A DNA stretch of 45,622 nucleotides from Candidatus Nealsoniibacteriota bacterium (GTDB taxonomy: Bacteria; Patescibacteriota; Minisyncoccia; Minisyncoccales; JAUWAW01): assembly GCA_030601865.1 (NCBI GenBank), contig JAUWAW010000005.1, forward strand, positions 1 to 45,622. The letters are read 5' to 3'. Of this stretch, positions 6,231 through 45,622 are shown one piece after another. The notes under the pieces were generated by a model. That model was not told where the DNA came from. It saw nothing but the letters and a program-made list of their open reading frames with translations, and did no database searches. Both the position numbers and the translations under genes were made by a program. Numbering within the stretch: position 1 is the stretch's first letter; the number at the start of each line of letters is the position of its first letter.

Positions 6231-6494
6231 GGAGCTAGGACTCGAAGGAGTTGTCCGAAGGCATTGCCTCCTCGCTTTGCTCGTCGCAATTCGGGGGCAA
6301 GGTTCTCGCCACAGCCACGCAAACAATATGTAAATTCAAATACCAAAAGGTATTAAAATTTTCATTGCTGACCACCGTGGACAACGTTAGAACTATTATT
6401 CAACGACAGGAGGAACATATATATGTCCCAAATCTAATTCAAACTACTTAACCCAATTTTTTTTCACTAGAATAAAAAATTCAAAAATTCTTGT

Positions 6495-13356: not shown

Positions 13357-13366
13357 CTTCATTTTT

Positions 13367-13395
13367 ATTCTACCAAATATTTCCCAAGAGTTCAA
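13367..13395 (-). promoter_or_regulatory. promoter TTGAAC-N17-TAGAAT (conserved-spacer family)
   Basis: TTGAAC TCTTGGGAAATATTTGG TAGAAT on minus strand. Confidence 0.7.
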
Positions 13396-13490
13396 ATTGT
13401 GTCTTAACTAAATTAAAAATCCTGCAAAAATAAACAGGATTTTAAGTTTTGGGCGACTCGGTCGCTCGAACCGAGCCCTAGCCTACTCCG
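13371..13490. repeat. dispersed repeat copy B (copy A at 6112-6230)
   Basis: See copy A; contains perfect 9-bp stem aaaatcctg...caggatttt. Confidence 0.85.
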
Positions 13491-19165: not shown

Positions 19166-19210
19166 GGTTTAACACCCGAAGTTAAATCATACAACTTCGG
19201 GTGTTAAACC
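19166..19210. repeat. perfect 18-bp inverted repeat (GGTTTAACACCCGAAGTT / AACTTCGGGTGTTAAACC, 9-nt loop)
   Basis: Direct reading. Confidence 0.95.
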
Positions 19211-19232
19211 GTTATATTAAACGTGCTATAAT
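19204..19232 (+). promoter_or_regulatory. promoter TTAAAC-N17-TATAAT of the ECF sigma gene
   Basis: -35 lies inside the inverted-repeat right arm; -10 12 nt from ATG. Confidence 0.6.
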
Positions 19233-19243
19233 AGCATATTGCT

Positions 19244-19798
19244 ATGTTTGAGGCGGATGAGGAGAAAAATTTGATACGGAAAATTCAAAAAGGAGACAAA
19301 GAGGCCTTTGGGCAGGTCTATGATTTTTATTATGATAAGATTTTTAGGTTTGCTTTTCGTAGAACATCGTCGCAGGAGACGGCTGAAGATATTACTTCAG
19401 AGGTTTTTTTGAGCGCAATCAAAAGTATTGGCAGGTTCAGGTATAAGAGAAACAATAGTTTTAAGGCCTGGATTTATCAGATTGCCAACAACAAAATCTG
19501 CGACTATTTTCGTAAGAATTACCGCAGCCCAACGATTGAATTAGAAAAGGCAGGGCAGTTGTCAGAAAAAAGAGAAAAAAGTCCGGACGCGATTTTTGCT
19601 GCCAAATCAGACAGGGAGGAAATAAACAAAGTTATTGCCCAACTTTCTGGAAATGACCAAGAGGTTGTCAACTTAACTTTTTTTGAAGATATGAAAGCGC
19701 CCGAAATTGCTGAAATTTTGGATTGTTCGGTTAATTCGGTTTATGTGAGGTTGCATCGGGCACTGAAGAAGCTCAAAGAATTCTTAGTTATTGATTAG
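19244..19798 (+). CDS. ECF-type sigma-70 factor
   Basis: Region 2 (ETAEDITSEVFLSAIKSI...FKAWIYQIANNKICDYFRK) and region 4 (DQEVVNLTFFEDMKAPEIAEILDCSVNSVYVRLHRALKKLK). Confidence 0.9.
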   Translation: MFEADEEKNLIRKIQKGDKEAFGQVYDFYYDKIFRFAFRRTSSQETAEDITSEVFLSAIKSIGRFRYKRNNSFKAWIYQIANNKICDYFRKNYRSPTIELEKAGQLSEKREKSPDAIFAAKSDREEINKVIAQLSGNDQEVVNLTFFEDMKAPEIAEILDCSVNSVYVRLHRALKKLKEFLVID

Positions 19799-19802
19799 AG
19801 TA

Positions 19803-19842
19803 TTTAACTTGCGATGTTAAACATACGACATCGCAAGTTAAA
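19803..19842. repeat. perfect 15-bp inverted repeat (TTTAACTTGCGATGT / ACATCGCAAGTTAAA, 10-nt loop)
   Basis: Direct reading. Confidence 0.93.
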
Positions 19843-19855
19843 CACATTGATTATT

Positions 19856-20389
19856 ATGTCCAAAGAACTTTTTGACGATATTAAGAAAATAAAACAAGGC
19901 AGAAAAAAGGATATAAGCAATCCCCTGCTTTCGGTTGCTCAAAAAATTATCCAGAGCAAACCCTTAGAACCGGAAATCAATCAAGCACACAAACAAAGTT
20001 TGAAAGCCAAATTAGAGGCGCAACTGAAGCCAGAAATTTCTGTTATTTCTGTTCTCAAAACAATGTTTTCTTTGCAGCCGAAAAATCTTGTGGCTTATGG
20101 CTCGTTGATAACCGTAGTTGCCTTAGCTGTTCTTTTGACAACTACTATGCCCGGACCTGTGCCCATGAAAGACGGGCTTGTCCCGATGAAAGAGGGAGTT
20201 TTTGAAGCAGTAAGAATGGAACAGGCGCCTGTAGCACCTGCAATGGAAACACAAAAAGAAGAAATGCCAGCTGATTTTGAGGTAGCTCTTGTAATAATTG
20301 CTGGTTTTGGTATGTTATTATTAGTTGTAGGTGTTGTAAGATTTTACAAATTACAGCGATACAATAAATACAAAGGTCGTAAATCTTAA
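19856..20389 (+). CDS. membrane protein, putative anti-sigma-like partner
   Basis: Starts MSKELFDDIKKIKQG; two TM segments; position directly after sigma gene. Confidence 0.5.
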   Translation: MSKELFDDIKKIKQGRKKDISNPLLSVAQKIIQSKPLEPEINQAHKQSLKAKLEAQLKPEISVISVLKTMFSLQPKNLVAYGSLITVVALAVLLTTTMPGPVPMKDGLVPMKEGVFEAVRMEQAPVAPAMETQKEEMPADFEVALVIIAGFGMLLLVVGVVRFYKLQRYNKYKGRKS

Positions 20390-20403
20390 ATAGATTAAAA
20401 AAA

Positions 20404-21468
20404 ATGAAAAAAGTACAAACTATTTTAATCCTCGGCTCTTTATTTTTAGGATTAATGCTCTGCGCGCCAGCATTTGCCCAGATAGAAATTAAAAGCATAG
20501 AAATAGAAGCAGAAACCATAGGACCCAACCCAACCACCGGGGAAGGCGAAGTCATTATTTCGCCTCAGCCCGGAACAGTTATTATGCCACCTATGGAAGA
20601 GGCACCAGCGCCTCCAGCGCCTGCCAGACCTGTCCCGGTGATGAAAAAGATGAGGGAATTGGATGTGTTGCTCAAAGAAGCAAGAAAAGCAGAGGAAACA
20701 GGAGATGAACAGGAAATTGAAGTACTTAAGAGACGCATTGATATGGCAGTGCCAGTTGCCGAAGAATTTATCCCTTTGTATCCTGAAGGAGTGACAGGCA
20801 TCCCAACAGAAGGCATCCCAGCAGAAAAATCTATTGAGGCGCGAACCGGACACGACATTAGCAACTATTTCAAGGTTCAGGTAGGCGAACTAATGAGAGA
20901 GAAAATGGATGTTGACCAAAGGATAACAATGCTTAAAGAATTAAGAGGCGGGATAGACACATTGATAGAAGAATTGATTCAAGGCAAAGAAGAAATCACC
21001 AGTGACGAAATGAGTGAATTGGTTGAGGAGATAAAGGTAAAACCACGGGAAATTCAGGCGGACAATATAAGGGTACAGACAACGGCCAAGAAAATTATGT
21101 TCCGGCTTCAGGGAAAGCCCATGGAGGTAAGGCCAACTGAAGAAAAGGTTATTATCAAAGATGAAGACATTGAGGTTGAGGTAGAGGAATTAACTATCAA
21201 GAGCGACGGAGCAATAATGGTTGGCAAATCAGAAGTTAAGGTTACGCCCAGCCAGATAATGGCCAAAATTAAAACTGAGGCAAAAGAAATCAGATTAGCC
21301 GAAGAGGAGAATCAAGCGGTTTACAAGGTAAAAACCCAGGTAAGGAGAAAGTTGTTCGGCTTTATTCCAATTGGAATGACCAAGAGAATAACAGCCAGCG
21401 CTGTTGATGTTGATGCGGAAATCATCAAAGAAAAACTGCCCTGGTGGAGTTTCCTGACAAGTAAGTAA
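20404..21468 (+). CDS. secreted hypothetical protein
   Basis: Signal peptide ...LMLCAPAFAQ; charged repeats. Confidence 0.55.
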   Translation: MKKVQTILILGSLFLGLMLCAPAFAQIEIKSIEIEAETIGPNPTTGEGEVIISPQPGTVIMPPMEEAPAPPAPARPVPVMKKMRELDVLLKEARKAEETGDEQEIEVLKRRIDMAVPVAEEFIPLYPEGVTGIPTEGIPAEKSIEARTGHDISNYFKVQVGELMREKMDVDQRITMLKELRGGIDTLIEELIQGKEEITSDEMSELVEEIKVKPREIQADNIRVQTTAKKIMFRLQGKPMEVRPTEEKVIIKDEDIEVEVEELTIKSDGAIMVGKSEVKVTPSQIMAKIKTEAKEIRLAEEENQAVYKVKTQVRRKLFGFIPIGMTKRITASAVDVDAEIIKEKLPWWSFLTSK

Positions 21469-21489
21469 GGAATGAGCAAGGCCCAATAC

Positions 21490-21585
21490 AAAACCCGATG
21501 TTGATTTAAGACCCGACATTTAAAACCCGATGTTGGGAATTCTTTAACATCGGGTTTTGAGTCGGGTCTTGGAACATCGGGTTTT
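21490..21585. repeat. three-tier nested inverted repeat
   Basis: aaaacccgatgtt/agacccgac/aaaacccgatgtt ... aacatcgggtttt/gtcgggtct/aacatcgggtttt. Confidence 0.93.
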
Positions 21586-22450
21586 ACATTCCTAATTTTT
21601 TTCGTCTTTTAACTAAGTAATAGAGAGTCAAAATTAATATCCCTAAAATTATTACTCCGACAAAAATTGCCACCAAGACATTACCTGTTCCCAGAGAAAA
21701 GATATTGCCAATTGTTGCTAAGAAAAATGGCTCGGCTTCTGCGGTGTAATCTGTAGGCGTAGCAACCTTTTCCTCGCCTTCTTCTGTAGTTATTAGCAGT
21801 GAAGCACAGTAAACGTCATCTATACAGTCACTCTCTTTTTCAATATCACAAGCGGCTGGTTCGCAAATTCGGGTCCGGGTTTGAAGAAGTTTAGTAGAAG
21901 TGCAATTTCCTTCTCCACAATCTCCTTTTTGCCAGGAACTCCAAATATCACAATTACAAGACGGCGGTAAAATTGTTTCCGGTATTATTAAACTATAACT
22001 ACCGCCTGACGAATCAGAAGAAACTGAAACCCCTTCTCCTATAATATCAACTCCTGTGAAGTCCGCTGTAGCAGTACCAGCGTTTTTTGCTTTCACTCTT
22101 ACCGTAAATAGTGTTTTATTCTCCGTTGTACATCTTGGGATTCCAAGAGAAAAATAAAGATTGCTGCAAGTTAATTTATTATCGGGTGAAGCCATTAAAT
22201 CTTTCTCAGGAATAATGCTTTGACAAGAAAGCTTATCCAATACTAACTTTCCTTCAACCATACAAACTTTTTCTCCGGCCGGATTAACTCTGACAGATAT
22301 ATTAAACGTATCCCCGACATTTTTGCTCAAACTTGCCGGCGAAACATAAACTGAAGGGTCTGCGGCTTCTACTGGATTGTAAAAAGCAAACCCAGTAATT
22401 AGAATACCAATAAAACCTAAAACTAAAATTGTAATTTTATCTTTTTTCAT
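21584..22450 (-). CDS. cohesin-like domain, Cys-rich TSP1-like segment, C-terminal TM anchor
   Basis: PSVYVSPASLSKNVGDTFNISVRVNPAGEKVCMVEGKLVLDKLSCQSI...; CDIWSSWQKGDCGEGNC; C-term TM + KRRKK. Confidence 0.6.
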   Translation of the reverse strand: MKKDKITILVLGFIGILITGFAFYNPVEAADPSVYVSPASLSKNVGDTFNISVRVNPAGEKVCMVEGKLVLDKLSCQSIIPEKDLMASPDNKLTCSNLYFSLGIPRCTTENKTLFTVRVKAKNAGTATADFTGVDIIGEGVSVSSDSSGGSYSLIIPETILPPSCNCDIWSSWQKGDCGEGNCTSTKLLQTRTRICEPAACDIEKESDCIDDVYCASLLITTEEGEEKVATPTDYTAEAEPFFLATIGNIFSLGTGNVLVAIFVGVIILGILILTLYYLVKRRKKLGM

Positions 22451-22521
22451 AATTCAAGATTATATATCTATACCTTAGCGAATCAAGGTTCTGCCGAGCG
22501 TTAGCGAGGCAGGTTCTTATT

Positions 22522-23820
22522 TTATATTGCGCTCCAATTTAACATTAAAAGAGCGAAATCATATTTGTCAACTTTATTGTCGCCATTTAAATCAGAATCA
22601 TTTACTCCTGTTTTCCCCCAATCAGACATCATTAAGGCAAAATCATATTTGTCTATTTTGGCATCATCATTTATATCACCAGTAATTTTTTCTCCTTCAG
22701 CCAAAGTAGTAAAAGTCCTGTCATCCCCAGTTCTTATATTCCCGCTGTTATCTTTTGACTTGATTTGGTAATGATAAGTAGCTCCTGGAGATAAATCGTT
22801 TAAGGTTACGGAGTGAGAAGCGGTATAAGAGGTTGTTTTTGCTTCCTGACCATAATCAGTGCTGGTGCCATAAACTATCCAAGAAATTGAGGATTCGTTT
22901 GTTTTCCAGGTAATGCTCGCGGCATTGCTTCCGGCCGTAACATTTATGTCGCTAATTGAAGGAGCAGTGGTATCAGTAGCACCTCCGCCTCCGCCGCTGC
23001 CCCCTCCTCCAGTATCTCCTCCATTGTCAGACGGTGGTGGTGAAGGAGCAGGCGGAGAGCCAAAAAGCGCGTAAGGGGTCTCTGCAGAAGAAATACTAAA
23101 AGTAAGCGTATTGGCCACAGATTTATCTACGGTAAAAGGAGTAATTTCTACCCAAGAAGTCCCATCAAACCAATAAGGCACTATCGTATCTTCATCTATG
23201 TCGCTATCATCGTATGTCATTGTTACTGATATACTCAAATTCTCGCCTCTTATCTTAATCTCAAAAGCATTTAACAAATTCTTTCCGGAAAAAACAGCCA
23301 CATTCCCGCTTGCCAATTTTTCTATTTTTTCTATAGTGGCGGTAGCATTCGTTTGCGAGGAAATAGTAATCTCCAATTTATCCCCCATTTTAATGATTGT
23401 CGGCATTGTTGGCGTAATTACAACTGGTTGATTTTCAATAGTTTCATCCTCGCTTTTTGAGATTTCGCCAATATTGCCTGAAATAGAAAAATCTATTTCC
23501 GTATGTTCACCATTGATAAAGGTTGCCGATTTTCCTGTGTCAATACCTTGGACAAAAAAGGTTATTGTTTTACCAGCCCGATTACTATCCGGGTCAGTAA
23601 CATAAAATATAGAATCATATCCGTATTTTCCATCTTTTGTCTCTGTAGTAGCGACTATGTTATTGTTAATCTTTGCCTCAATTAAAACTCCATCCGGCGC
23701 CGAGCCATTAGCAAAATCCACAGTTCCGTAAAACTGATGAGGAATACCGGGCGCTGCTAATACCCAGACAGGCATTAACAGCGCCGATATAATACAAACT
23801 ATAGTCAAAAACGATTTCAT
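22522..23820 (-). CDS. secreted FN3-type protein with C-terminal dockerin
   Basis: GDINDDAKIDKYDFALMMSDWGKTGVNDSDLNGDNKVDKYDFALLMLNW; FN3 APSISDINVTAGSNAASITWKTNES. Confidence 0.8.
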   Translation of the reverse strand: MKSFLTIVCIISALLMPVWVLAAPGIPHQFYGTVDFANGSAPDGVLIEAKINNNIVATTETKDGKYGYDSIFYVTDPDSNRAGKTITFFVQGIDTGKSATFINGEHTEIDFSISGNIGEISKSEDETIENQPVVITPTMPTIIKMGDKLEITISSQTNATATIEKIEKLASGNVAVFSGKNLLNAFEIKIRGENLSISVTMTYDDSDIDEDTIVPYWFDGTSWVEITPFTVDKSVANTLTFSISSAETPYALFGSPPAPSPPPSDNGGDTGGGGSGGGGGATDTTAPSISDINVTAGSNAASITWKTNESSISWIVYGTSTDYGQEAKTTSYTASHSVTLNDLSPGATYHYQIKSKDNSGNIRTGDDRTFTTLAEGEKITGDINDDAKIDKYDFALMMSDWGKTGVNDSDLNGDNKVDKYDFALLMLNWSAI

Positions 23821-23844
23821 ATAACTGATTATCAGTGATTAGTT

Positions 23845-26800
23845 CTACTCACTTTCTCCCGGACCGTACATATAGGTTATGGTGCTGGACTTCATAAATA
23901 TCCAGAAACCATCGCCGGGAGATATAGTATCGCTAAAGCCTACTGTAGTAAATGTCTTTCCCGTATTATCGTAGCTAACTAAACTTGTCCACCATTTCTT
24001 TGTTGCGTCAGTATAATTATCTGACAAAGTTGATAATGCCTTATTAACAGCAATACCTTCAATTCCTTCGTTTTGATAATAGCCAATCAAATTCCAGCCG
24101 CCAACCAATTGCCTTTGCGGAGGTGTTTGCTGTTCGTTGAACAAACTGCCGTAGCCCTCAATAGCATCATCACCAGTAGCGCTTATCCAGTAGCCATAAC
24201 CAGCAGTCATTGAACTAAGATTGCTGGAGCTTCCATCTGGATGATAAACATACCACTCGTCATCTACTACATCATACATCCATACAGAATCTATCTTACT
24301 TGCCGCATCTCCTAAAACCTCACTGATACTTATATCCACAGGAACCGTGGGAATGGAAATCAAGTTCCAGCCATTAGTTATCGCAATAGAGTAATATGTC
24401 GCAGTTGTGAATTTCCATGTTGTCACCCCTGATAATGAATTCACGGCCAAATCAGTAACCTCTGTTAAAGCCACTGTAAATTCTGTATTAGAGTCCAAGG
24501 GACTATCAGGCTCAAAAGTTAATGTATAAGTATCAGAGTTATAATCAGCGCTGCCGCTTACAGAATCAAGAGATATACAATTCTCCCAGATACCATCATC
24601 ATTAGTGCATTTAACATCTTCGTTAAATTCAATAATAACATTTGTTGTGGCATCTACTCCGGCCGCATTTATCCCCGGTGTTCTGAAAGTTATTATTGGA
24701 TAAGTTATGTCCACTGTAAATGAAATCCCGTAATCGTCTGAATTAACAGCAGTGCCCTCGCCGATGTTGGACTTACACTTTACATAATAGGTGTGCTCAC
24801 CCTCTGCAAGTCCGCTTAAAGCAGTGGAGTGAGATGTTTCGCCGGTGGTAGTAAAGTGCGTCATTGAATCATAATCTGTTTCTGGTGTTTGGCTGTATCT
24901 GCAAGTCGCGTCTCTGTCAGTATCCAGAGAAAGCGTCGGGTCAGCAGTATTTGTGTAATCAGCTGGTTGTCCATTATCTCTTACCGGCGCCGAATCTTTA
25001 GTGTCTTCCAGCCACGGAGCATAATCAACATATGTACTTACAATATCTCCACTCCCCGAACCTTGTCCACTAGGGCCACTCGCATCGCCCCACCAATTGC
25101 TTTCAGCATTAATATTGACCTCTGATTGATTTTGCAAGCCGTAACTGATATTACCGGAAACATTGTTATAATTGATTGACAGATTAGTAGTTGGTCCGTT
25201 GACGCCTAACCAGATACCGATGTCATTATTAGAAAGGGTATTGTATTGGACATTGCCGGATAAAGAACCTGAACCTTGGCCAGAATTAACCCAAATTCCT
25301 TTAGGCATATTCTGGACAGTATTACCAGAAATTGTTACTCCTGTATGCGTATTACCATACCAGTCAATATAACGGATACCTGCCTTGTCTCCACTGCCCA
25401 TGGTATTATTAATTGTATTGCCAGATATGTCTGTATTATCAGCCTCGGTAGCAATACCATAACCAATATGGCCATTAATAGTATTATTTGTCACTGCAAT
25501 AGAACCATCGCCGGAATTAGGGTTAATGTAAATACCAGCTACATCCCAAGCAGATAGGTCACCATCACCATCCTCATCTAAAAAGATGATATTATCTAAG
25601 ATGTTCAGACCATCAACGTCAATATCTAATCCACTTTGGATGGCTACAGCCGCTGAATAAATAATGTTATTGGAAATCTGGACATTTTCTACAACAGGAT
25701 AAGGTTCGCCAACTTCACCAATTACAATACCTGTGCCGTTAGAAATGCCTCTATCGCCATCCGTGCCATCAAAATCAAAAGTGAAATCTTGTATAATGAC
25801 CCCGCTGGCATATATTTGAACATCATATTCGCCGGCAACCGGGACAGCGATTGGTTGAATAATAGCAGTAGTTTTATCAGTGCCTGTAAGGGTAAGTTGT
25901 TTGGTAATGGTCAATCTTTCATTATAAGTCCCATCACCGACATTAATCGTATCACCCTCGGTTGCGGCATCAATCGCATCTTGGATTGTTATGAAATCCG
26001 CTGGAACATCTAATGTGTTATCCAAATCAATCACAATAGAAACATCGTCTGTTGCTTCATTTCCAGCCGCGTCTCTGACAATTAGAGTAATTGTGCGCCT
26101 GCCGTCAGTAAGACCGGAAATACTTGCCGGTGATGCGCAGTTTGTAATTTCTACTTCTACCCCTTCATCTATTTTGTAATAACAGGTAATTGTATTTGTA
26201 TCACTGGCAGTATATTCCAAAGAAACATCTGAAGATTTAATCACATCATCTGTGACAGGTGAAGTAATTTCTGCTATCGGGACCGTGGTATCAATAACAA
26301 ATGTTGTTCCTTCGCCTGGCACCTCTGCGTTATTGCCTGCCGCGTCCGCAACAATAGATAAACTCACAACAGCTTCGCCGTCAACATATTCCACGCCATT
26401 GTCAGAATGAACTGCATATGCATATGTCCAGGTGGTCTGGTCTCCGCTATCAATCATATCCGCATTAGCAATATCCTCTGTTCCCTGCTGGTTGATACTA
26501 ATTTGCGGAGTACCGACAATTGCTTCAGAATAAGTGGCAGTGACTATTACATCACCTGCTTTTACAGGACTAACTGGATTGTAAGTTATTTCCACGCTTG
26601 GCGCGACAGTATCCTTAACAATCCCTACCTCACTATCTACGCCTGTATTACCCGCAGAATCAGTGTCTTTTAGATATAGAGTGAAAGTGTCTTGGTCTAA
26701 TTCAGCAAATTCGGGGATATCAGATAATTCTGTCTCCCCGCTTGTGCAAGCTACCCAACTAGTATCATCTACTGAACATTGGGGTGCTGTTAATTCATTG

Positions 26801-29490: not shown

Positions 29491-29553
29491 ACTTAATTAT
29501 TAATTTATACTTCTGGCAACCGACTAAATTGCCACCCTCCAATTGATTTATCT

Positions 29554-29582
29554 ATTTTATTACAACCATAAACCCTTGTCAA
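29554..29582 (-). promoter_or_regulatory. promoter TTGACA-N17-TAAAAT for the adhesin gene
   Basis: Minus TTGACA AGGGTTTATGGTTGTAA TAAAAT. Confidence 0.7.
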
Positions 29583-29688
29583 GGGGTGTGTATAAGTTCC
29601 CACTATATAGGAAATAATCAGGACACAATTGTTAGTAGGACACAAGGTGGGACATCCAAAGTATTTCAGTATCTTTTTTTGAAAACTT

Positions 29689-30000
29689 CTAAATCTCGCG
29701 GTTGCATTTTTTGCAGATGCGGTATTTTTTGTTGCCCTCTATTTTGTAGCCAACTCTGGTTGGCTTACCGCATTTGGGGCAAATCAGTTTTACATCAGAA
29801 ACAGGCAAAGGCACCGGGACCTCCACCACCTGGCCCTTTTCTCCTTCTTTTTTTGGCCGGACATGTTTTTTCCTTATATTCAATCCTTCCACAACTACCC
29901 TACCCCCTTTTGGTAAGGCCTGTATAACTTTTCCCTTTCTTCCCCGGTCTTTGCCGGCAATGACTAAAACCTGGTCGCCTTTTTTTATTTTCACCCCCAC
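29689..30000 (-). CDS. rplX: ribosomal protein L24
   Basis: KIKKGDQVLVIAGKDRGRKGKVIQ...ICPKCGKPTRVGYKI. Confidence 0.92.
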   Translation of the reverse strand: MGVKIKKGDQVLVIAGKDRGRKGKVIQALPKGGRVVVEGLNIRKKHVRPKKEGEKGQVVEVPVPLPVSDVKLICPKCGKPTRVGYKIEGNKKYRICKKCNREI

Positions 30001-30011
30001 ACCAAACGAAC

Positions 30012-30269
30012 TTATGCTTCAAGACAATTCTTGATTCTATTCTTGAGTTGTCTTAATGCTTTCGCTCGCAGTTTAAGATTATGTTCACGATGGAACGCAT
30101 CTTGTCTTGAAGCATATGCTTCATAATAAACAAGGCTAAATGGTATTCTAGGCCTTGTTGAATCTACAAGCCCTAAATTATGTTTTTTGAATCTTCTTCT
30201 AAGATCATCTGTGCAACCAATATATAGTTTATCATCTTTTTTGCTTTTTAGAATATACACAAAGAACAT
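30012..30269 (-). CDS. GIY-YIG nuclease family protein
   Basis: FFVYILKSKKDDKLYIGCTDDLRRRFKKHN...RPRIPFSLVYYEAYASRQDAFHREHNLK. Confidence 0.88.
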   Translation of the reverse strand: MFFVYILKSKKDDKLYIGCTDDLRRRFKKHNLGLVDSTRPRIPFSLVYYEAYASRQDAFHREHNLKLRAKALRQLKNRIKNCLEA

Positions 30270-30297
30270 AATTTAAAGTTCGTTATGGTGTGGGGGT

Positions 30298-30858
30298 TCA
30301 TGATTTTTTGATGGGAAATCCCATCAATTTCAATAATTCTAGCCCCTCTTCTTTATTTTTAGCTGTGGTAACCACAGTTATTTCAAAGCTAAAAATACTC
30401 TTGGCTTTTTCAGGTAAAATTTCAGGGAAGGCAATATGTTCTTTAATAGCAATAGTCAAATTACCATTTTGGTCAATTGATTTTGGGTCAATACCGCGGA
30501 AGTCCCGAGCCCGTGGCAGACCAATACGAATCAGCCGTTCCAAAAAATCATTCATTTTTTTCTTTCTCAAAGTATTCATAGCGCCAATGGGCATACCCTG
30601 CCTAATCTTAAATCCAGCAATAGATTTCTTGGCTTTGGTTAAAATGGGCCGCTGGCCCGTGATTAAAGCCAAATCGTTTAAAATGGCTTCTTGAACTTTT
30701 TTCTGCTCTGACGATGTTTTACCAGCAATCAGCCGGCCAAAGCCAATGTTAACAACTACCTTTTCAATCTTAGGAACAGCCAAGTCATTTTTATAGCCAA
30801 ATTTTTCTTTCAGGGCCGGCACAACTTCTTTTTTATATTTTTCTTGTAGGCCAATCAT
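30298..30858 (-). CDS. rplE: ribosomal protein L5
   Basis: PKIEKVVVNIGFG...GQRPILTKAKKSIAGFKIRQGMPIGAMNTLR. Confidence 0.93.
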   Translation of the reverse strand: MIGLQEKYKKEVVPALKEKFGYKNDLAVPKIEKVVVNIGFGRLIAGKTSSEQKKVQEAILNDLALITGQRPILTKAKKSIAGFKIRQGMPIGAMNTLRKKKMNDFLERLIRIGLPRARDFRGIDPKSIDQNGNLTIAIKEHIAFPEILPEKAKSIFSFEITVVTTAKNKEEGLELLKLMGFPIKKS

Positions 30859-30864
30859 GTTAAG

Positions 30865-31236
30865 TTAAATAATTTCTTTCGCCAGACCTATTATTTTATC
30901 AAATCCTTTCTCTTTTAATTCCCGAGGGATGGGGCCGAAAATCCTGCCTCCCTTTGGGTTTTTTGTTTTGCCTTCTAAAATGACAACCGTATTTTCATCA
31001 AAACGGATATAAGAGCCGTCTGGCCGACGGAAAGGTTTTTTTTGCCGCACAATTACTGCTCTGACAACCTCGTGTTTCTTTACCGTCCTTCTTGGCTCTG
31101 CTTTTTTAACCGCAGCAACAATAATATCGCCCAGTCGGGCATAACGTCTCCTGGTACCACCCAAAACCTTAATACACTGGATGACTTTCGCTCCAGTATT
31201 GTCTGCTACTTTTAACATTGTCTCTGTTTGAATCAT
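30865..31236 (-). CDS. rplN: ribosomal protein L14
   Basis: [33 protein letters not shown]. Confidence 0.95.
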
Positions 31237-31301
31237 TAAATTGCGAATTACGAATTAAGAATTACGAATCACGAATATTCTTAATTCATGATTCTTGATT
31301 C

Positions 31302-31535
31302 TTAATTCTTCTTTATCAATCTCCACCGTTTCTCTTTACTCAGTGGACGACACTCCTCTATAACAACTTTGTCGCCAATCTTATATTCTCCCTTCTCAGT
31401 ATGGGCTTTATATTTTTTGTGGACTTTATATCTCTTCTTATAGCGAGGATGTTCTTTAATTCTCTCTACCCTAACCACCACTGTTTTCTGCATCTTATTG
31501 GAAACAATTGTTCCTCTTAGTTGTTTTTTAGGCAT
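31302..31535 (-). CDS. rpsQ: ribosomal protein S17
   Basis: [40 protein letters not shown]. Confidence 0.92.
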
Positions 31536-31547
31536 AATTAATATTAT

Positions 31548-32090
31548 TTACTCGGCGGTGACGACCTTCTTGCCCACTTTTCTCCTCACTTGCTCACCCA
31601 CATATCTAATCCCCTTTCCCTTATAGGGCTCGGGTGGACGAACTGCCCTTATCTTGGCAGCCACCTCTCCAACCTTTGCTTTATCAATCCCAGAAACAGT
31701 AATTATGTTTTTCTCTACTGAAAATTTTATACCCTCTTCTTGCTTTATTTGGACGGGATGACTAAATCCAACCTGCAATATCAAATCCTCTCCTTCCAGC
31801 TTTGCTCGGTAGCCCACGCCTTGTATTTCTAATTTCTTTTCATACCCTTGAGTTACTCCCTTGACCATGTTAGCCAATAAAGCCCTGGTTAATCCCCAAA
31901 GGGCCTTGACTTTTTTGCTTTCTCCCTGAGACAAAACAAAAATTTTTGCCTCTTTTATATTTACTCTAATTTCGGGTCGAATTTCCTGCTCAAGTTCGCC
32001 CTTGGGACCCTTGACGACCACTTTATTGTCGCTAACTTTTACTTCCACGCCTTCCGGTATTAAAATGGGTTTTTTGCCTATTCTTGACAT
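31548..32090 (-). CDS. rplF: ribosomal protein L6
   Basis: MSRIGKKPILIPEGVEVKV...RPPEPYKGKGIRYVGEQVRRKVGK. Confidence 0.95.
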   Translation of the reverse strand: MSRIGKKPILIPEGVEVKVSDNKVVVKGPKGELEQEIRPEIRVNIKEAKIFVLSQGESKKVKALWGLTRALLANMVKGVTQGYEKKLEIQGVGYRAKLEGEDLILQVGFSHPVQIKQEEGIKFSVEKNIITVSGIDKAKVGEVAAKIRAVRPPEPYKGKGIRYVGEQVRRKVGKKVVTAE

Positions 32091-32102
32091 AAAAATTGAA
32101 AA

Positions 32103-32492
32103 TTAAAACTTTAGTCCTCCCTTTCTGGCTCCTTCTGCCAGCGCCTTCACTCTTCCATGGTATTTATATCCTCCTCTGTCAAAGACTACTTTTTTGATTT
32201 TCTTTTGAAGCGCTTTTTCGGCAATTAACTTTCCTACTTTATAGGCAACAGCAACCTTTCCCGTAAGGGGCTTTGGAGTTCCTTCTTTTTTCTCTTGCTT
32301 CAAATTATGACGATCGTTACGATTTGAAGTATTTTTTAGTTCAAAATCGCTGGCTTGGGCTAAAGTTTTGCTCTTTTCATCATCAATCACCTGAACATAA
32401 ATATGTTTGCTGCTGCGAAAAACACAAAGCCGCGGAACACGAGCCGTTCCGAATATCTTGGCTCTTACCCTCTTATGACGACTATATCTCAT
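32103..32492 (-). CDS. rplR: ribosomal protein L18
   Basis: [28 protein letters not shown]...[28 protein letters not shown]; start overlaps L29 stop. Confidence 0.9.
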
Positions 32493-32692
32493 TTTTTGTT
32501 TTGTTCTTTCCATTTTGCATTGATGATGGTAAGTATCCTGGCAATGTCCTTTTTTAATTGCCGGATTTCTCTCACATTTTTCACCTTGCCTGAAGCCAAA
32601 TCAAACCGTAGGGTTCGCAATCTGGCTCTATTTTGCTGCAATACTTTTTGTAATTCTGCCTTGGTTTTCTTGTTAAGTTCTTTGGCTTTCAT
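32489..32692 (-). CDS. rpmC: ribosomal protein L29
   Basis: [53 protein letters not shown]. Confidence 0.85.
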
Positions 32693-32711
32693 AGAACAAT
32701 GGTCATCCTTC

Positions 32712-32753
32712 GGGCTCGCCCCCACACCTATGCATAGGTGTGGGGGCGAGCCC
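32712..32753. repeat. 42-bp perfect palindrome GGGCTCGCCCCCACACCTATG|CATAGGTGTGGGGGCGAGCCC
   Basis: Direct reading between rplP stop and rpmC start. Confidence 0.95.
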
Positions 32754-32760
32754 TCAGGGG

Positions 32761-33168
32761 TCATTTTACAAACTTTGTCTTGATGGGCAATTTGGCTGTG
32801 GCCTTACGGAAGGCCTCTCGGGCTTGCTCCTCTTCTATGCCTTCGAGTTCAAAAATAATTCTGCCCGGTTTTATGGGAAAAACATAAAACTCTACTGTGC
32901 CTTTTCCTCCGCCCATGGGCACTTCAGTCCCTTTTCTGGTGATGGGCTTGTCGGGAAAGATTCTAATCCAAAGTTTACCTCTTTTCTTTAGATATCTGAT
33001 AATGGCTCGCCGGGCCGCTTCAATCTGACGACCACTAATCCAACGGGTCTCCAAACTTTTTAAACCAAAAGTTCCAAAGGCAAGCTTGGCTGCCCGAGTC
33101 TCAATTCCCTTGCTCCGACCTTTCATCCATTTCCGATGTTTAACTTTTTTGGGCATCAAAATAGCCAT
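32761..33168 (-). CDS. rplP: ribosomal protein L16
   Basis: [17 protein letters not shown]...[30 protein letters not shown]. Confidence 0.93.
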
Positions 33169-33170
33169 GG

Positions 33171-33809
33171 TTAGAATTTGTCGCCTTTGTAAATCCAGAC
33201 CTTTACGCCGATTACACCATAAGTGCAGAATGCTTGGGCAGTACCATAATCAATGTCTGCCCTTAAGGTCTGGCGGGGAAGACGGCCGGCCTGCAGCCAT
33301 TCAGTCCGTGAGATGCTTACACCATTTAACCTCCCAGCTACCTCTACCCTGGCCCCTTTTATTTCTTTGTGAGCCATAATTTTCTCCAAGGCCTGCTTTA
33401 AACTTCTGCGATAACGGATTCGTCTTTCCAAAGAAGCAGCAATCCATTGAGCAGCTAAGGCAGCTTTTGTCCAAGGGTCTTTAATCTCTTTAATCTCTAA
33501 ATTTAGTGCTTGGGCATCTTTTTTTAAAATTTTGTGCTTTAATTTCTCTCTTAATAGTTCAATGTTTTTTCCTCCCCGGCCAATAATAAAAGCAGGTCGG
33601 GCAGAATGGATAATAATATTTATCTTGTTTGGAAATCGTTCCACCTCAATCTTTTCTAGGGCACAATCTTTGAATCTTTTTTTTAAAAATTCCCTAATTT
33701 CAAAATCTTCCTTGAGATATTTTAAGGCTTTTTTTCCATAAAATCCACGAGAATTCCAATCAGCCATTTCTTTTAGACGATAAGCTTTGGGATGAACTTT
33801 GTGACTCAT
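33171..33809 (-). CDS. rpsC: ribosomal protein S3
   Basis: [12 protein letters not shown]...[15 protein letters not shown]...[13 protein letters not shown]. Confidence 0.93.
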
Positions 33810-33811
33810 AA

Positions 33812-34318
33812 TCAAAATGCTTTTCTTCTAAATATCCGTTTTAGGCCTTTTACAAAACTGGGTTTTCTAATCTCTTTTTCGGGTCTAGCCAGACGAGGTG
33901 TTGGTTTCTTTTCCGGCTTGGCAACTTTTTCTTCTTTTTTAACGACTGTCGGCTTTGGTTTTTTAACAACTTTTTTGGGCGCTCCTTTTACTATATCTAA
34001 AGTTAAGGTTATATGCGAGGTCTTTTTCTGGATTTCGGCGGCTCGACCCCTAGCCCTGGCCCGCCATCTTTTGAGAGTCGGTCCTTGATCTACTGTAATT
34101 TTGGAGATATAAAGGTTTTCCGGAGTTTGTTCAAGTATCTCCTTGGCTGCGGCAATTCCTGATTTTAGGAGTTTAGCCAAAGGCAAGACAGCTTTTTTAA
34201 CAGTGAAATTCAAAATGGTTTGAGCTTGCTCTACTGATTTGCCTCGAATGAGGTCGGCCACAAGCCTGACTTTCCTGGGCGCTATTCGCAGATAACGTAG
34301 TTTAACAGTAATTGGCAT
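33812..34318 (-). CDS. rplV: ribosomal protein L22 with basic C-terminal extension
   Basis: LRYLRIAPRKVRLVADLIRGKSVEQA...GPTLKRWRARARGRAAEIQKKTSHITL. Confidence 0.92.
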   Translation of the reverse strand: MPITVKLRYLRIAPRKVRLVADLIRGKSVEQAQTILNFTVKKAVLPLAKLLKSGIAAAKEILEQTPENLYISKITVDQGPTLKRWRARARGRAAEIQKKTSHITLTLDIVKGAPKKVVKKPKPTVVKKEEKVAKPEKKPTPRLARPEKEIRKPSFVKGLKRIFRRKAF

Positions 34319-34321
34319 GTT

Positions 34322-34648
34322 TTAGGTAGTTTTTTCCGTTTCCACTTTTGCTTTTTCTTTTTCTTTGGCTTTGGCTTCCTGTTCACGTTGTATCTTGCCA
34401 CCATGCCTTGAGAACTTAGTGGTTGGAGAAAACTCGCCTAATTTATGGCCGACCATCTCTTCGGTTATAGGAACAGGAATATGCTCTTTCCCATTGTGAA
34501 CCCCAAAGGTAAAACCAACCATTTCCGGAATAATGGTACAGGCCCTTGACCACGTCTTAATAATGGTCTTGGCGCCTTTCTTCACTTTAGAAATCTTTTT
34601 CAGTAATTTTTCATCCACGTATGGACCTTTTTTGAGTGAGCGTGACAT
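34322..34648 (-). CDS. rpsS: ribosomal protein S19
   Basis: [19 protein letters not shown]...[17 protein letters not shown]. Confidence 0.93.
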
Positions 34649-34669
34649 AGGTTTTGCTTGGCAAAACAA

Positions 34670-34798
34670 TCACCAAACATCAAACACCAATAACCAAACA
34701 TATATAATAATTGGTTATTGGTTATTGAGATTTGTTTGGTTATTGTATCTTGTATCTTGGTTATTGAACATATTCTTGGTTATTGGTTATTTTAAACA
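34670..34798. repeat. stuttering inverted-repeat array, (AATAACCAA)/(TTGGTTATT) family
   Basis: caccaaacatcaaacaccaataaccaaac...ttggttattggttattgag...ttggttattg. Confidence 0.85.
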
Positions 34799-35593
34799 TT
34801 ATTTTTTCTTTTTCTGTCGTCTTTTAAGAATATACTTGTTCGTTGACTTTCTTCGTCTTGTTTTAACTCCACGGGCTGGTTTGCCCCAGGGTGTTTTGGG
34901 ATATTTCAAACCAATGGGCGCTTTTCCCTCTCCTCCGCCATGAGGGTGGTCAGCCGGCACCATAGCCGAGCCCCGAACCGTGGGCCTCCGACCCTTCCAA
35001 CGCGCCTGGCCTGCCTTTCTCATTTTTTTATAGCGATGTTCAGGAAAAGAGACCATACCTACTGTGGCGTAACATTCTTGAAGAATCTTGCGCAATTCTT
35101 TGGAAGGCATTTCCACATTTGTGTATTTACCCTCGTGCGCTAAAATCTTAGCGCCTGTGCCAGCTGACCTGACAATCTGGCCTCCTTTGCCTGGCTGAAG
35201 TTCTATATTATAAACCATGGTTCCTACTGGGATATTTTTAATTTTCATGCGGTTGCCTCGTTGAACCCTGGTTTTCTCCTTGATAAGTACCTCATGGTCT
35301 TTTTTCAATCCTTGGGGGGCTAAGCGATATCTCTTTGTCCCGTCCTCATACTCCAGAAGCACAATAAAAGCGGTTCTATAAGGATCATATTCTAAAGCAA
35401 TAACCTTGGCCTTCATTCCCTGCTTTTTCTGGCCAAAATCAACAAGGCGATACCTACGTTTGGCACCGCCTCCTTTATGCCGAACCGTTATTCTACCAGA
35501 ACGTCCTCTCCCGGCTCTCCTCTTCAAGGTTAAAAGCAAACCTTTCTCAGGTTTTTTCTTAGTCAACAATTTTTTGGAATCGGTGATTTTCAT
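34799..35593 (-). CDS. rplB: ribosomal protein L2
   Basis: GRGRSGRITVRHKGGGAKRRYR...MVPADHPHGGGEGKAPIG. Confidence 0.95.
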   Translation of the reverse strand: MKITDSKKLLTKKKPEKGLLLTLKRRAGRGRSGRITVRHKGGGAKRRYRLVDFGQKKQGMKAKVIALEYDPYRTAFIVLLEYEDGTKRYRLAPQGLKKDHEVLIKEKTRVQRGNRMKIKNIPVGTMVYNIELQPGKGGQIVRSAGTGAKILAHEGKYTNVEMPSKELRKILQECYATVGMVSFPEHRYKKMRKAGQARWKGRRPTVRGSAMVPADHPHGGGEGKAPIGLKYPKTPWGKPARGVKTRRRKSTNKYILKRRQKKKK

Positions 35594-35594
35594 A

Positions 35595-36008
35595 TTAGCG
35601 AGGTAAAACTTCTATTTTTTCGCCTTCCTTTAACTTAACAATGGCTTTCTTGTAGCCCTTTCTCCAGCCCTGAATCCGTCCCAAACGTCTTCTCTTGCGA
35701 GGCACTCTAATAATTTTAACACCTTTAACCTCTACACCATATAAATCTTCCACTGCTTTTTTCACCTCAATCTTGTTTGTCCTAGGCCAAATCTTAAAAA
35801 CATATTGGTTATGTTTGACCAAATCAGTAGCTTTCTCCGTGACATGAGGTTCTTTAAGAACCCGGTAGGCAATCGCAGAAATTTTTGTTTTGGGTTTTAC
35901 CGGCACTTTCGGTTTCGGCTTTTCAGTAACTTTTGCCTTGACAGGTTCTTTCTCCGGCGTTTTCTTTGCGGGTTTTTTCTTTTTTTTGAAAATGTCAAGT
36001 AAAGACAT
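35595..36008 (-). CDS. rplW: ribosomal protein L23 with Lys-rich N-terminal extension
   Basis: VLKEPHVTEKATDLVKHNQYVFKIWPRTNKIEVKKAVEDLYGVEVKGV. Confidence 0.92.
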   Translation of the reverse strand: MSLLDIFKKKKKPAKKTPEKEPVKAKVTEKPKPKVPVKPKTKISAIAYRVLKEPHVTEKATDLVKHNQYVFKIWPRTNKIEVKKAVEDLYGVEVKGVKIIRVPRKRRRLGRIQGWRKGYKKAIVKLKEGEKIEVLPR

Positions 36009-36080
36009 GAATTATGAATTTAGAATTACGAATTACGAATCTTTTATTCTTAATTCTTGATTCGTGATTCTTGATTCTTT
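36009..36080. repeat. stuttering inverted-repeat array, GAATTACGAATT family
   Basis: gaattatgaatttagaattacgaattacgaatc...attcttaattcttgattcgtgattcttgattc. Confidence 0.85.
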
Positions 36081-36706
36081 TTAAGAAATGTTTCCTTTAT
36101 CACCTTAATACTTTCTTTAGGTATAAGCAAATATTTAAAAGAAAGTAGGTCCAGGGTATTTAAATCTTTGGCCTGGATTGTCTCCACTTTGGTAATGTTT
36201 CTGGTAGATAAAATAATGTTTTTATCTATGAAGGGCAGAGCAATTAAACAGCTTTTTTCTTTGCAGGGTAGTTTCTTTAGAATACTTGCCAGCTCTTTAG
36301 TTTTTACTTTTTCTAATTTTAATTGCTCAAGCACGAGCAATAAATCCTCTTTGGCCTTGGCTGAAAAAACCATCAAAAGCGCTTTTCTCCTCATTTTCTT
36401 GGGAATTGCTTTTTTAAAGACTTTTTCTTTCCTGGGCCCAAAGGTGACTCCCCCGCCCCGCCAGATGGGTGAACGGATAGAACCCACCCTTGCCCTACCA
36501 GTTCCCTTCTGCCGCCAGGGCTTTCTGCCGCCACCGCGCTTCTCGCTTCTGTCCTTGGTATGAGCAATTACTTGCCTGCGGTTTGCCATCTGGCTCACTA
36601 CCACCTGATGCACCAAGTCAGAGTTCATCGGAACTTCAAAAACCTCCTTGGGCAGACGTATTTTGGCTAACTTCTTTCCCTCTTGATTGTAGGTATCAAC
36701 TAACAT
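36050..36706 (-). CDS. rplD: ribosomal protein L4
   Basis: NRRQVIAHTKDRSEKRGGGRKPWRQKGTGRARVGSIRSPIWRGGGVTFGP. Confidence 0.93.
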   Translation of the reverse strand: MLVDTYNQEGKKLAKIRLPKEVFEVPMNSDLVHQVVVSQMANRRQVIAHTKDRSEKRGGGRKPWRQKGTGRARVGSIRSPIWRGGGVTFGPRKEKVFKKAIPKKMRRKALLMVFSAKAKEDLLLVLEQLKLEKVKTKELASILKKLPCKEKSCLIALPFIDKNIILSTRNITKVETIQAKDLNTLDLLSFKYLLIPKESIKVIKETFLKKNQESRIKN

Positions 36707-36710
36707 GTTT

Positions 36711-37310
36711 TTACTTACCTCTAATCTCAAGTAAAGTGCCTCTTCGGCCCGGGACCGCGCCTTTGACGGTCAGTAAATTCTTTTTTGCGTCAATTTTGAC
36801 GACTTTCAAATTTTTTACTGTTACTCTTTCAGCGCCCATTCTGCCGGGCATTTTCTTACCCTTAATTACTCTTTGCGGGAAAGACGAGCCAACCGAGCCA
36901 AGTGTTCTTTCTTCATGCTTTGTGCCATGCGAGGCAGGCTTTCCGTGAAAACCCCATCTTTTAACCGCGCCAGCAAACCCTTTACCTTTGCTGATGCCGG
37001 AAACTTTAACTATGTCCCCTTCTTTGAAAACCGATGCATCAATTTTTTGACCAACTTTGTAATGTTTAACATCGTAAGTTAAACATCTAAATTCTCGTAA
37101 ATGCTTATATTCCTTGCCTTTCTCTGTCTTTTTAACCTTTTTTTTCTTTTCTACAAAACCAAGCTGAAGAGCTAAATAGCCATCTCTTGTCTCTGTTTTT
37201 ACCTGTAAAACCGAACAAGGTCCTGCTTCAATCAAAGTTACGGGAACAACGTTTCCCTTTTCATCAAAGATTTGCGACATACCAAGTTTTTTACCGAGAA
37301 TGAATTTCAT
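36711..37310 (-). CDS. rplC: ribosomal protein L3
   Basis: MKFILGKKLGMSQIFDEKGNVVPVTLIEAGPC...RWGFHGKPASHGTKHEER. Confidence 0.93.
   Translation of the reverse strand: MKFILGKKLGMSQIFDEKGNVVPVTLIEAGPCSVLQVKTETRDGYLALQLGFVEKKKKVKKTEKGKEYKHLREFRCLTYDVKHYKVGQKIDASVFKEGDIVKVSGISKGKGFAGAVKRWGFHGKPASHGTKHEERTLGSVGSSFPQRVIKGKKMPGRMGAERVTVKNLKVVKIDAKKNLLTVKGAVPGRRGTLLEIRGK
37063..37085. repeat. 23-bp palindromic element TGTTTAACATCGTAAGTTAAACA inside rplC
   Basis: Exact reverse complement of 39676-39698. Confidence 0.95.
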
Positions 37311-37326
37311 AATTTTAAACAGAAAA

Positions 37327-37341
37327 CCGCGCTCAGCGCGG
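37327..37341 (-). terminator. terminator-like hairpin CCGCGCTGAGCGCGG + TTTT between rpsJ and rplC
   Basis: Minus GCCGCGCTGAGCGCGGTTTTC. Confidence 0.5.
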
Positions 37342-37369
37342 CTTCTTAAATCTGAGCTATTTCCGCTAA

Positions 37370-37708
37370 TCACATCTTAATCTCAATATCCACGCCAGCC
37401 GGTAAATTCAGGTCGGTGAGGGCATCAATTATTTTAGGAGTGGGGTTCAAAATATCAATCAATCTTTTGTGAATCCTCATCTCAAACTGCTCCCGACTAT
37501 CTTTATGAATAAAAGAAGACCTATTGACTGTATATTTATGAATCTCGGTGGGTAAGGGAATCGGCCCCACAATTTCAGCTCCATAACGTAAAGCCGCCTC
37601 CACAATGTCGTGAGCACTATTGTCAATGACTTTATGGTCGTAAGCACGCAACTTGATGCGGAGTTTGGGTTTTACTGCAACTTCTGCCTCTGCTTTTTTT
37701 GTAGGCAT
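37370..37708 (-). CDS. rpsJ: ribosomal protein S10
   Basis: [47 protein letters not shown]. Confidence 0.95.
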
Positions 37709-37744
37709 CTTAAGAACACTCCCTCGCCCTCTCTCTGCTCGGGC

Positions 37745-37824
37745 TCGGTCAACTTATGAACCTAAGAACTTATGAACTTATGAACAAATTGTTCTTCAGT
37801 TCTTTCGTTCTTCAGTTCTTTAGT
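37745..37824. repeat. stuttering inverted-repeat array, (GAACTTATGAAC)/(GTTCTTCA) family
   Basis: aacttatgaacctaagaacttatgaacttatgaacaaattgttcttcagttctttcgttcttcagttc. Confidence 0.8.
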
Positions 37825-39024
37825 CTACTTAACAATTTTAGTCACTACGCCGGCTCCTACAGTTTTGCCGCCCTCTCTAATAGCAAACCTTTGTTTCTCT
37901 TCCAAAGCAACCGGGGCAATAAGTTTAATCTTTAAATTAACTGTATCGCCGGGCATAACCATCTCGGTTCCTTCGAGCAAACTCACATCACCAGTTACAT
38001 CAGTGGTACGGATATAAAACTGGGGTTTGTAGCCAGTAAAGAAAGGGGTGTGACGACCGCCTTCTTCTTTGCTCAAGATATAAACTTCACCTTCAAAATC
38101 GGTGTGGGGGGTAGCAGAACCTAGTTTGGCCAAGACCTGACCTCTTTCTACCTCTTCTTTTTTAAGGCCACGGAGTAATATACCCACATTATCTCCGGCT
38201 CTTCCTTCGTCTAACATCTTATTAAACATTTCCACGCTCACCGCCACTGTTTTCTGAGTATCTCTTATGCCAATTATTTCTACCTCTTCTCCTGGTTTGA
38301 CCACGCCTCTCTCAATTCTACCGGTAGCCACCGTTCCTCTGCCTTCAATAGAAAAGACATCCTCAATAGCCATTAAAAATGGCTGGTCTAAGGCACGGGC
38401 GGGCTCGGGGATGTTTTCGTCAACTTTAGCAATAATCTCGCTAATACACTTCATTGCCTCATCATCGACTGAACCTGCCTCAAGCGCTTTCAAAGCAGAG
38501 CCACGAATGATGGGAATTTTATCGCCGGGAAATTCATATTTATTCAACAGTTCCCTTAATTCCGACTCTACCAGCTCAAGCATTTCAGGGTCATCCACCT
38601 GGTCGGTCTTATTCAAAAAGATAACCAAGGAAGGTAAACCTACCTGTCTGGCTAAAAGCACGTGCTCTCTGGTTTGAGGCATAGCACCATCAGGCGCAGA
38701 AACCACCAAAATTGCCCCATCCATTTGCGCCGCCCCGGTAATCATGTTCTTGATATAGTCAGCATGGCCGGGACAGTCAATCAGAGCATAATGTCTTTTG
38801 TCGCTCTCAAACTCGGTGTGACAGATGTTAATAGTCACACCTCTGGCTTTTTCCTCAGGAGCTGAGTCAATCTCCTCCACTGTTTTTTCTGAAGCAAGCA
38901 AACCCTTCATCTTGGTGTACTTCAAAATAGCGGCAGTTAAAGTAGTTTTACCATGGTCAACATGGCCAATTGTGCCGATATTTAAGTGAGGTTTTGTCCT
39001 CTCAAATTTTTGTTTTTCAGCCAT
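37825..39024 (-). CDS. tuf: elongation factor Tu
   Basis: [15 protein letters not shown]...[31 protein letters not shown]. Confidence 0.97.
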
Positions 39025-39115
39025 TGTTTTTAAGAATCTGGAATCAAGAATTAAGAATTAAGAATAAAAATATTCATAATTCGTAATTCGTAATTCGTAA
39101 TTCTATTTTTACTTA
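39025..39115. repeat. stuttering inverted-repeat array in tuf leader, GAATTAAGAATT/AATTCGTAATTC family
   Basis: gaatcaagaattaagaattaagaataaaaatattcataattcgtaattcgtaattcgtaattc. Confidence 0.85.
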
Positions 39116-39122
39116 TATTCCC

Positions 39123-39150
39123 ATTCTACACGAACCAAAAAAAATGTCAA
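39123..39150 (-). promoter_or_regulatory. promoter TTGACA-N16-TAGAAT upstream of tuf
   Basis: Minus TTGACA TTTTTTTTGGTTCGTG TAGAAT. Confidence 0.7.
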
Positions 39151-39159
39151 CAGTTTCAC

Positions 39160-39429
39160 CTATTTTCGTTTACGATAAGTAATGGTAGTCCGTCGTTCAA
39201 CTCTAAATATAAAAACTATTCGTCTTTTTGTGAATAGTTCGTAAGAAACTCTATAAGAGCCAATTCGTCTCCGCCAGACATTTTCTTCACCCTCCATTTT
39301 TTCTATATCACCAACAAATGGGTTAATTCTGAATTGATAAAAAACCATTTCAATTCGTTTTGCATCTTTTCCCGGGAAACGGTTCAACTGCTTTCCTATT
39401 TTAGGATGAATGACAACCTTCCAGTTCAT
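39160..39429 (-). CDS. RelE/ParE-like toxin
   Basis: WKVVIHPKIGKQLNRFPGKDAKRIEMVFYQFRINPFVGDIEKMEGEENVWRRRIGSYRVSYEL. Confidence 0.8.
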   Translation of the reverse strand: MNWKVVIHPKIGKQLNRFPGKDAKRIEMVFYQFRINPFVGDIEKMEGEENVWRRRIGSYRVSYELFTKRRIVFIFRVERRTTITYRKRK

Positions 39430-39631
39430 TTTTTAATTCCTCTAAAGTTATATAATTCCCTCGAGCAAAATCCTTTCTTGCTTCTTCTAAAGCTTTCTTT
39501 TCAGCAACAGTGGGCTTGAAAGTTTTGACTGATCTTTGCCAATGTAAAAATTCTTCGTATTCAGAACGAGGTATTATTACTAAATCCCCTCTTTTGGTTA
39601 ATCTTTTTGGAATAGTAAGTAGTTCACCCAT
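39401..39631 (-). CDS. cognate antitoxin
   Basis: PRSEYEEFLHWQRS...ALEEARKDFARGNYITLEELKNELE; overlaps toxin start. Confidence 0.7.
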   Translation of the reverse strand: MGELLTIPKRLTKRGDLVIIPRSEYEEFLHWQRSVKTFKPTVAEKKALEEARKDFARGNYITLEELKNELEGCHSS

Positions 39632-39675
39632 ATGTTTTTATTCTAAACAATTTAAACCCAAAAGTCAAAAATCTA

Positions 39676-39698
39676 TGTTTAACTTACGATGTTAAACA
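39676..39698. repeat. 23-bp palindromic element TGTTTAACTTACGATGTTAAACA
   Basis: Exact reverse complement of the rplC element. Confidence 0.95.
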
Positions 39699-39872
39699 CT
39701 TAATGTCTTGTTTTTTAAGGTGAGGATAATTCTCCAAAATTTCCTTTTCAGCCATACCTTGAGCCAGCAAACGCAAAATTAGCTCAACTGTAATGCGAGT
39801 TCCTTTAATAACGGGCTTGCCAATTATTATCTTTGGGTCAACAGTTATTCGATTTTGGTATTTGGTAGTCAT
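39684..39872 (-). CDS. DUF433 protein, apparently truncated at C-terminus
   Basis: NRITVDPKIIIGKPVIKGTRITVELILRLLAQGMAEKEILENYPHLKKQDIKCLTS*; last residues encoded by the palindromic element. Confidence 0.75.
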   Translation of the reverse strand: MTTKYQNRITVDPKIIIGKPVIKGTRITVELILRLLAQGMAEKEILENYPHLKKQDIKCLTS

Positions 39873-45498: not shown

Positions 45499-45622
45499 AT
45501 CAAATCACCAAGATACAATAACCAAGAAACAAACAATAACCAATGTTTCAATAACCAATAATCAAACGGTTTGGAATTTTGGTCATTGGTTATTGGAATT
45601 TGTTTGTATCTTGTATCTTGGT
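45499..45622. repeat. stuttering inverted-repeat array, same AATAACCAA family as 34670-34798
   Basis: accaagatacaataaccaagaaacaaacaataaccaatg...aataaccaataatc...ttggtcattggttattgg...tgtatcttgtatcttggt. Confidence 0.85.

Follow-up and report, generated by a model that had tools for sequence, protein, structure and literature searches.

A dispersed 23-bp palindrome in a Candidatus Nealsoniibacteriota genome is very probably a REP-like element of a RAYT transposase system

The closest described counterpart of the repeats analysed here is the REP/RAYT system, with its short palindromes dispersed singly or as inverted dimers (GTAG REPs, REPINs/BIMEs) and its Y1/HUH RAYT genes bordered by inverted copies. 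A minority of GTAG/CGTC REPs lies inside open reading frames, some of them supplying stop codons (PMC3733652), and in subclass 2.4 the RAYT genes themselves contain in-frame REPs (PMC6006769). Two further groups bear comparison: TnpA_Y1 subclass 2.6 of the Bacteroidetes, whose Y1 genes are flanked by atypical structures with copies elsewhere in the genome (PMC6006769), and the Rickettsia palindromic elements (RPE), of which RPE-4 and RPE-6 have been equated with CGTC REPs and RPE-1 is a longer insertion (PMC3733652). In the partial open-access coverage available to us, no paper was found that connects candidate-phyla bacteria with RAYTs or with palindromes of this kind, which is not proof of novelty.

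The palindromes described below share with REP/RAYT both the dispersal, as singlets or inverted dimers, and the association with Y1/HUH RAYT genes bordered by inverted copies. As with GTAG/CGTC REPs, some copies lie within open reading frames or supply stops, and, as in subclass 2.4, the RAYT genes of this genome contain in-frame copies. The resemblance to subclass 2.6 lies in Y1 genes with non-canonical flanking structures and copies elsewhere, although the phylum is different; the resemblance to RPE lies in palindromic insertions within protein genes, all in one frame. We consider it very probable that the repeats are REP-like, non-autonomous mobile palindromes of a RAYT (Y1/HUH) system, because RAYT genes of relatives carry the 23-mer as inverted flanks.

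The window, that is, the whole stretch of 45,622 nucleotides that was analysed, is contig C15 of a genome (G000) of 590,907 bases in 21 contigs that is 96% complete; genes were called from open reading frames, without a gene finder. The initial annotation had described an exact 23-bp element in opposite orientations inside rplC and at the 3' end of a DUF433 gene, paired inverted repeats on either side of an ECF sigma factor gene, and a related half-site within a larger structure. All of these were recovered (Table 1): both 23-mers are exact for TGTTTAACATCGTAAGTTAAACA, Pfam (Ribosomal_L3) bears out the location in rplC, the second copy supplies the DUF433 stop codon, the inverted repeats lie around the sigma factor gene, and the half-site TTTAACATCGGGTTTT falls within a 106-nt nested hairpin. 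The same annotation had judged such recurrence unlikely by chance and proposed a genome-wide count. In that count the exact pattern GTTTAAC-N7-GTTAAAC, for which Markov models of the window give an expectation of 0.003-0.004, was found 11 times against 0 for the control pattern read backwards, a frequency well beyond chance.

Table 1. Palindromes, associated genes and other repeats in the window.
Feature	Position	Strand	Remarks
Inverted dimer, core ACCCGAA, 18-bp arms, 9-nt loop AAATCATAC	19166..19210	.	Upstream of ECF sigma gene; folds as DNA, -19 kcal/mol, z -9.5
ECF sigma factor gene	19244..19798	+	Between two dimers; Pfam Sigma70_r2 and Sigma70_r4_2
Inverted dimer, core TTGCGAT, 15-bp arms at 19803-19842, loop TAAACATACG	19801..19844	.	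Between ECF sigma gene and next gene; folds as DNA, -15.1 kcal/mol, z -8.4
Nested hairpin, 106 nt, repeated AACATCGGGTTTT units	21485..21590	.	Between convergent genes; half-site 21543-21558; fold -35.9 kcal/mol, z -9.7
rplC (ribosomal protein L3)	36714..37310	-	Host gene of one copy; Pfam PF00297
Single 23-bp palindrome TGTTTAACATCGTAAGTTAAACA, core ATCGTAA	37063..37085	-	Inside rplC; exact match
23-mer TGTTTAACATCGTAAGTTAAACA in opposite orientation	39676..39698	+	Exact match; its TAA ends DUF433 gene
DUF433 gene	about 39684-39872	-	Stop from 39676-39698 copy
15-bp tandem repeat ATCCTCGCCATCTTT	5547-5726		Within ORF 5535-6059 (minus strand)
Direct repeat, 128 bp, 89% identical	6104-6231 and 13363-13490		
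GAATTACGAATT / GATTCTTAATTC-like repeat arrays	31232-31320, 36009-36089, 39032-39116	both orientations	Ribosomal protein region
TTGGTTATTGGTTATTG-type repeats	34667-34766 and 45503-45622	direct and inverted	

When the scan was confined to the window and tolerated 3 mismatches, 6 sites were found against 3.8 expected, which is not significant, so that the case rests on the exact matches and the genome-wide counts. Leaving the spacer free (GTTTAA-N{1,30}-TTAAAC) returned 32 matches in the genome, 28 of them with exactly 9 bases between the arms. The conserved unit is 23 bp of fixed length, TGTTTAA-N9-TTAAACA, and the bases further out show no strong consensus. This genome holds 24 exact copies of the 23-bp unit and 28 of its 21-mer frame, a modest number, and the unit falls in the 20-40 bp range of short dispersed palindromes. 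Across the order, our own sum over per-genome counts comes to 140 occurrences, carried by 30 of the 147 genomes scanned, against 2 for the reversed-pattern control. Several core families exist among the copies; the asymmetric 7-nt core ATCGTAA is kept in 7 of the 11 exact copies, and an exact core is also present in contig MHMH01000022.1, from a Candidatus Nealsonbacteria member of the same order. A scan of the genome collection for the exact 21-mer gave matches on four contigs from two organisms; on none of these was a RAYT seen next to the copies.

The 23-bp unit is a hairpin with a covarying inner stem. We compared 45 distinct units, each in one orientation, from this genome and its relatives. 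The inner pair 8:16 is Watson-Crick in 36 of them (mean of shuffles 11.4, maximum 23) and draws on all of A-T, C-G, G-C and T-A, while pairs 9:15 and 10:14 are Watson-Crick in 30 (mean 12.3, maximum 22) and 33 (mean 20.6, maximum 30) units, respectively. Three inverted dimers were seen in this genome, two in the window and one in L003; their cores differ and the loop is near-identical, AAA(T)CATAC. Such BIME/REPIN-like dimers were also found in a relative (G145). The nested hairpin at 21485-21590 is sequence-related, and may be either a degenerate cluster or a terminator acting in both directions.

Seven of the 28 copies lie inside protein genes, identified by Pfam as rplC, dprA, three Mur ligases (L005, L011, L016), pgk and one unknown gene. 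All seven use the same open frame and add about 8 residues each, a uniformity explained by the arms themselves, since GTTTAA and TTAAAC place TAA in two of the three frames on each strand. The open frame reads C-L-x-x-x-(V/I/F)-K-(H/Q) or close to it; the rplC copy, on the minus strand, encodes CLTYDVKH in its sole open frame. In pgk (L237, 1174-2418), where the palindrome encodes CLNSEFKH, further unusual segments such as CLRPDLGDLKSDVGASLTSDFERSGLKQF are present. Alignments with 29 orthologues each placed the rplC, murE and dprA copies in length-variable loops, which range among relatives over 3-19 residues in L3, 5-21 in the MurE-like ligase and 7-16 in DprA, and at these loops the copy-encoded peptide is absent from every one of the relatives aligned. 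As judged from the alignments, these positions are consistent with insertion into tolerant sites, which is not the same as proof of clean insertion. A further eight copies (seven and that of the DUF433 gene) overlap gene 3' ends, several of them providing the stop codon, as in proteins ending ...MFNIVS-stop and ...LFNIVS-stop, and many copies lie just downstream of genes, at a distance of 6-17 bp.

The link to a transposase comes from relatives. In three genomes of the order (G104, G004 and G014), inverted copies of the unit stand just outside a Y1/HUH RAYT gene, one at each end. At the G104 gene (L059, 1012-1749; Pfam Y1_Tnp), TGTTTAACACCCGACGTTAAACA ends 13 bp before the ATG and the inverted copy directly follows the stop codon. 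The G004 RAYT, 57% identical to that of G104, has TGTTTAAACTTCCACTTTAAACA at one end and its inverted copy at the other, and the 21-bp core of TGTTTAAACTTCCACTTTAAACA is identical to the copy at C14:6438 in the genome studied here; the G014 RAYT (56%) is bordered by TGTTTAAGGTTCAACCTTAAACA. All three proteins belong to one 13-member clade (support 100/100), outside which the four RAYTs of this genome fall. Other palindromes accompany the same-clade RAYTs of G008, G114 and G145, and none was detected at that of G036. Against the NCBIfam model REP_Tyr_transpos, the RAYT proteins scored below the cut-off or not at all.

A matching palindrome pair on both sides of the gene (stem length at least 8, within 90 bp, thresholds of our choosing) was found for 24 of 55 RAYT genes, compared with 1 of 87 control genes, which were orthologues of L3, MurE and DprA. 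The RAYT genes are related to one another, and as some of the genomes had been selected because they carry the window's palindrome, the set and the palindrome are not independent. The sole control with such a pair was dprA of this genome, bracketed by two copies of the family associated with the RAYT gene L046. The figure for the RAYTs is conservative, since the strict test misses some genes with palindromes just inside the ends of the reading frame, as at L044 and L045. In another genome, G022 (L081-L085), 32 copies of GTTTAACATGTCATGTTAAAC were observed, several paired about 98 bp apart near contig ends, and the one RAYT of that genome is not flanked by them.

This genome encodes four Y1/RAYT-type genes of its own (L043-L046, on contigs C14 and C17). 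Near-perfect palindromes particular to each gene stand at both ends of L044, L045 and L046 and at the start of L043, and the coding sequence of each of the four also includes one in-frame copy of the gene's palindrome. L045 and L046 encode related proteins, in which two different palindromes share one variable region preceding the HUH motif. TGTTTAA-N9-TTAAACA is not among the palindromes of these four genes, and no member of the TGTTTAA-type clade turned up when the genome was searched with the G104 protein: the matches were L043-L046 only, at no more than 38% identity, with 34% for the best by score. For this reason the copies in this genome are probably orphans of a lost transposase, or are served by one that lies in an assembly gap. 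A second REP-like family, TGTTGACATCSGATGTCAACA, of the L046 type and with a resident RAYT, numbers 27 copies against 0 for the control. Its sites include C14:25416-27207, C12:3052, C4:40880 and C1:2421; one copy was seen inside an ECF sigma gene (peptide LTSDVN) and others beside dprA.

Three identities had been offered for the palindrome by the initial annotation, namely a regulator site, a nucleoid or segregation site and a mobile palindrome. Only the last was upheld, in the form of the REP-like palindrome of a RAYT; the other two do not fit. The perfectly inverted half-sites and the dimers flanking the ECF sigma gene on both sides are what would be expected of an operator for a dimeric transcription regulator (two 8-bp half-sites with a 7-bp spacer), acting for example on that gene. 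However, a quarter of the copies lie within coding sequences and eight more across gene 3' ends, the asymmetric 7-nt core is itself conserved, the inner bases covary as hairpin pairs and the unit forms the inverted flanks of transposase genes in relatives, all of which makes an operator highly unlikely. Several of the same observations bear on a segregation or nucleoid site, or a core site of a tyrosine recombinase such as an integron simple site or dif, which we regard as extremely unlikely: the arm-spacer-arm geometry (7-bp arms, 7-bp asymmetric spacer) agrees with it, as does the conservation of the spacer in one subfamily, but spacer and inner arm vary between subfamilies with compensatory changes, copies occur in coding loops and at gene ends, and the enzyme adjoining the unit in relatives is a Y1/HUH transposase (Y1_Tnp) and not a tyrosine recombinase.

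The position of many copies 6-17 bp past gene ends, the strong folding of the dimers and the placement of the 21485-21590 structure between convergent genes could also speak for hairpins that act at the RNA level, as terminators or mRNA stabilisers, and that selection produced repeatedly without transposition. This origin is very unlikely, given that the copies at 37085, 39698 and 19210 are not followed by a T-run, that copies lie inside genes and flank RAYT genes, and that identical 21-mers are found at different places in unrelated genomes. Operator, dif/integron-type site and terminator alike were rejected as the primary identity, and a secondary role of the gene-end copies as RNA elements (in termination or mRNA stability) is possible.

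If the repeats are REP-like palindromes, a RAYT-type Y1/HUH tyrosine transposase would recognise the 23-bp hairpin as folded single-stranded DNA. In relatives, RAYT genes of one clade are bordered by inverted copies; other copies, single or as inverted dimers, would have reached gene ends and the gaps between genes, and intragenic landings would survive solely where the frame stays open and the loop is tolerant. The family differs from canonical REPs in its fixed 23-bp length with a covarying stem, in the share of copies inside coding sequences, with in-frame copies even in essential genes such as rplC, in the cognate RAYT type not being found in this genome, and in its host, whose ultra-small genome belongs to the same order as Ca. 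Nealsonbacteria. In addition, a GT[AG]G, GGAG or CGTC foot tetranucleotide was present within 6 nt at 0 of 56 ends, and we therefore file the family as a tagless variant that appears to work like REP/RAYT and not as a canonical REP family. It is set apart from RPE by the RAYT link visible in relatives, and from the longer RPE-1 by an insert of about 8 residues per single copy. Whether ultra-small (CPR) genomes harbour a large tagless superfamily of RAYT-borne 21-25-bp hairpins, routinely placed in frame in the loops of essential proteins and at gene ends, is a wider proposition to which we give even odds.

A repeat that would otherwise be read as a regulatory site is now given an identity. The REP/RAYT partnership thereby reaches into a candidate phylum, here in the absence of the tag thought to direct it. 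Segments of 8 residues that apparently derive from a transposon are present in a ribosomal protein and in several cell-wall enzymes. RAYTs that each have their own palindrome form a natural set for studying hairpin recognition without a GTAG foot. Should the tagless superfamily be real, RAYT activity would supply compact genomes with new short stretches of peptide and new stop codons.
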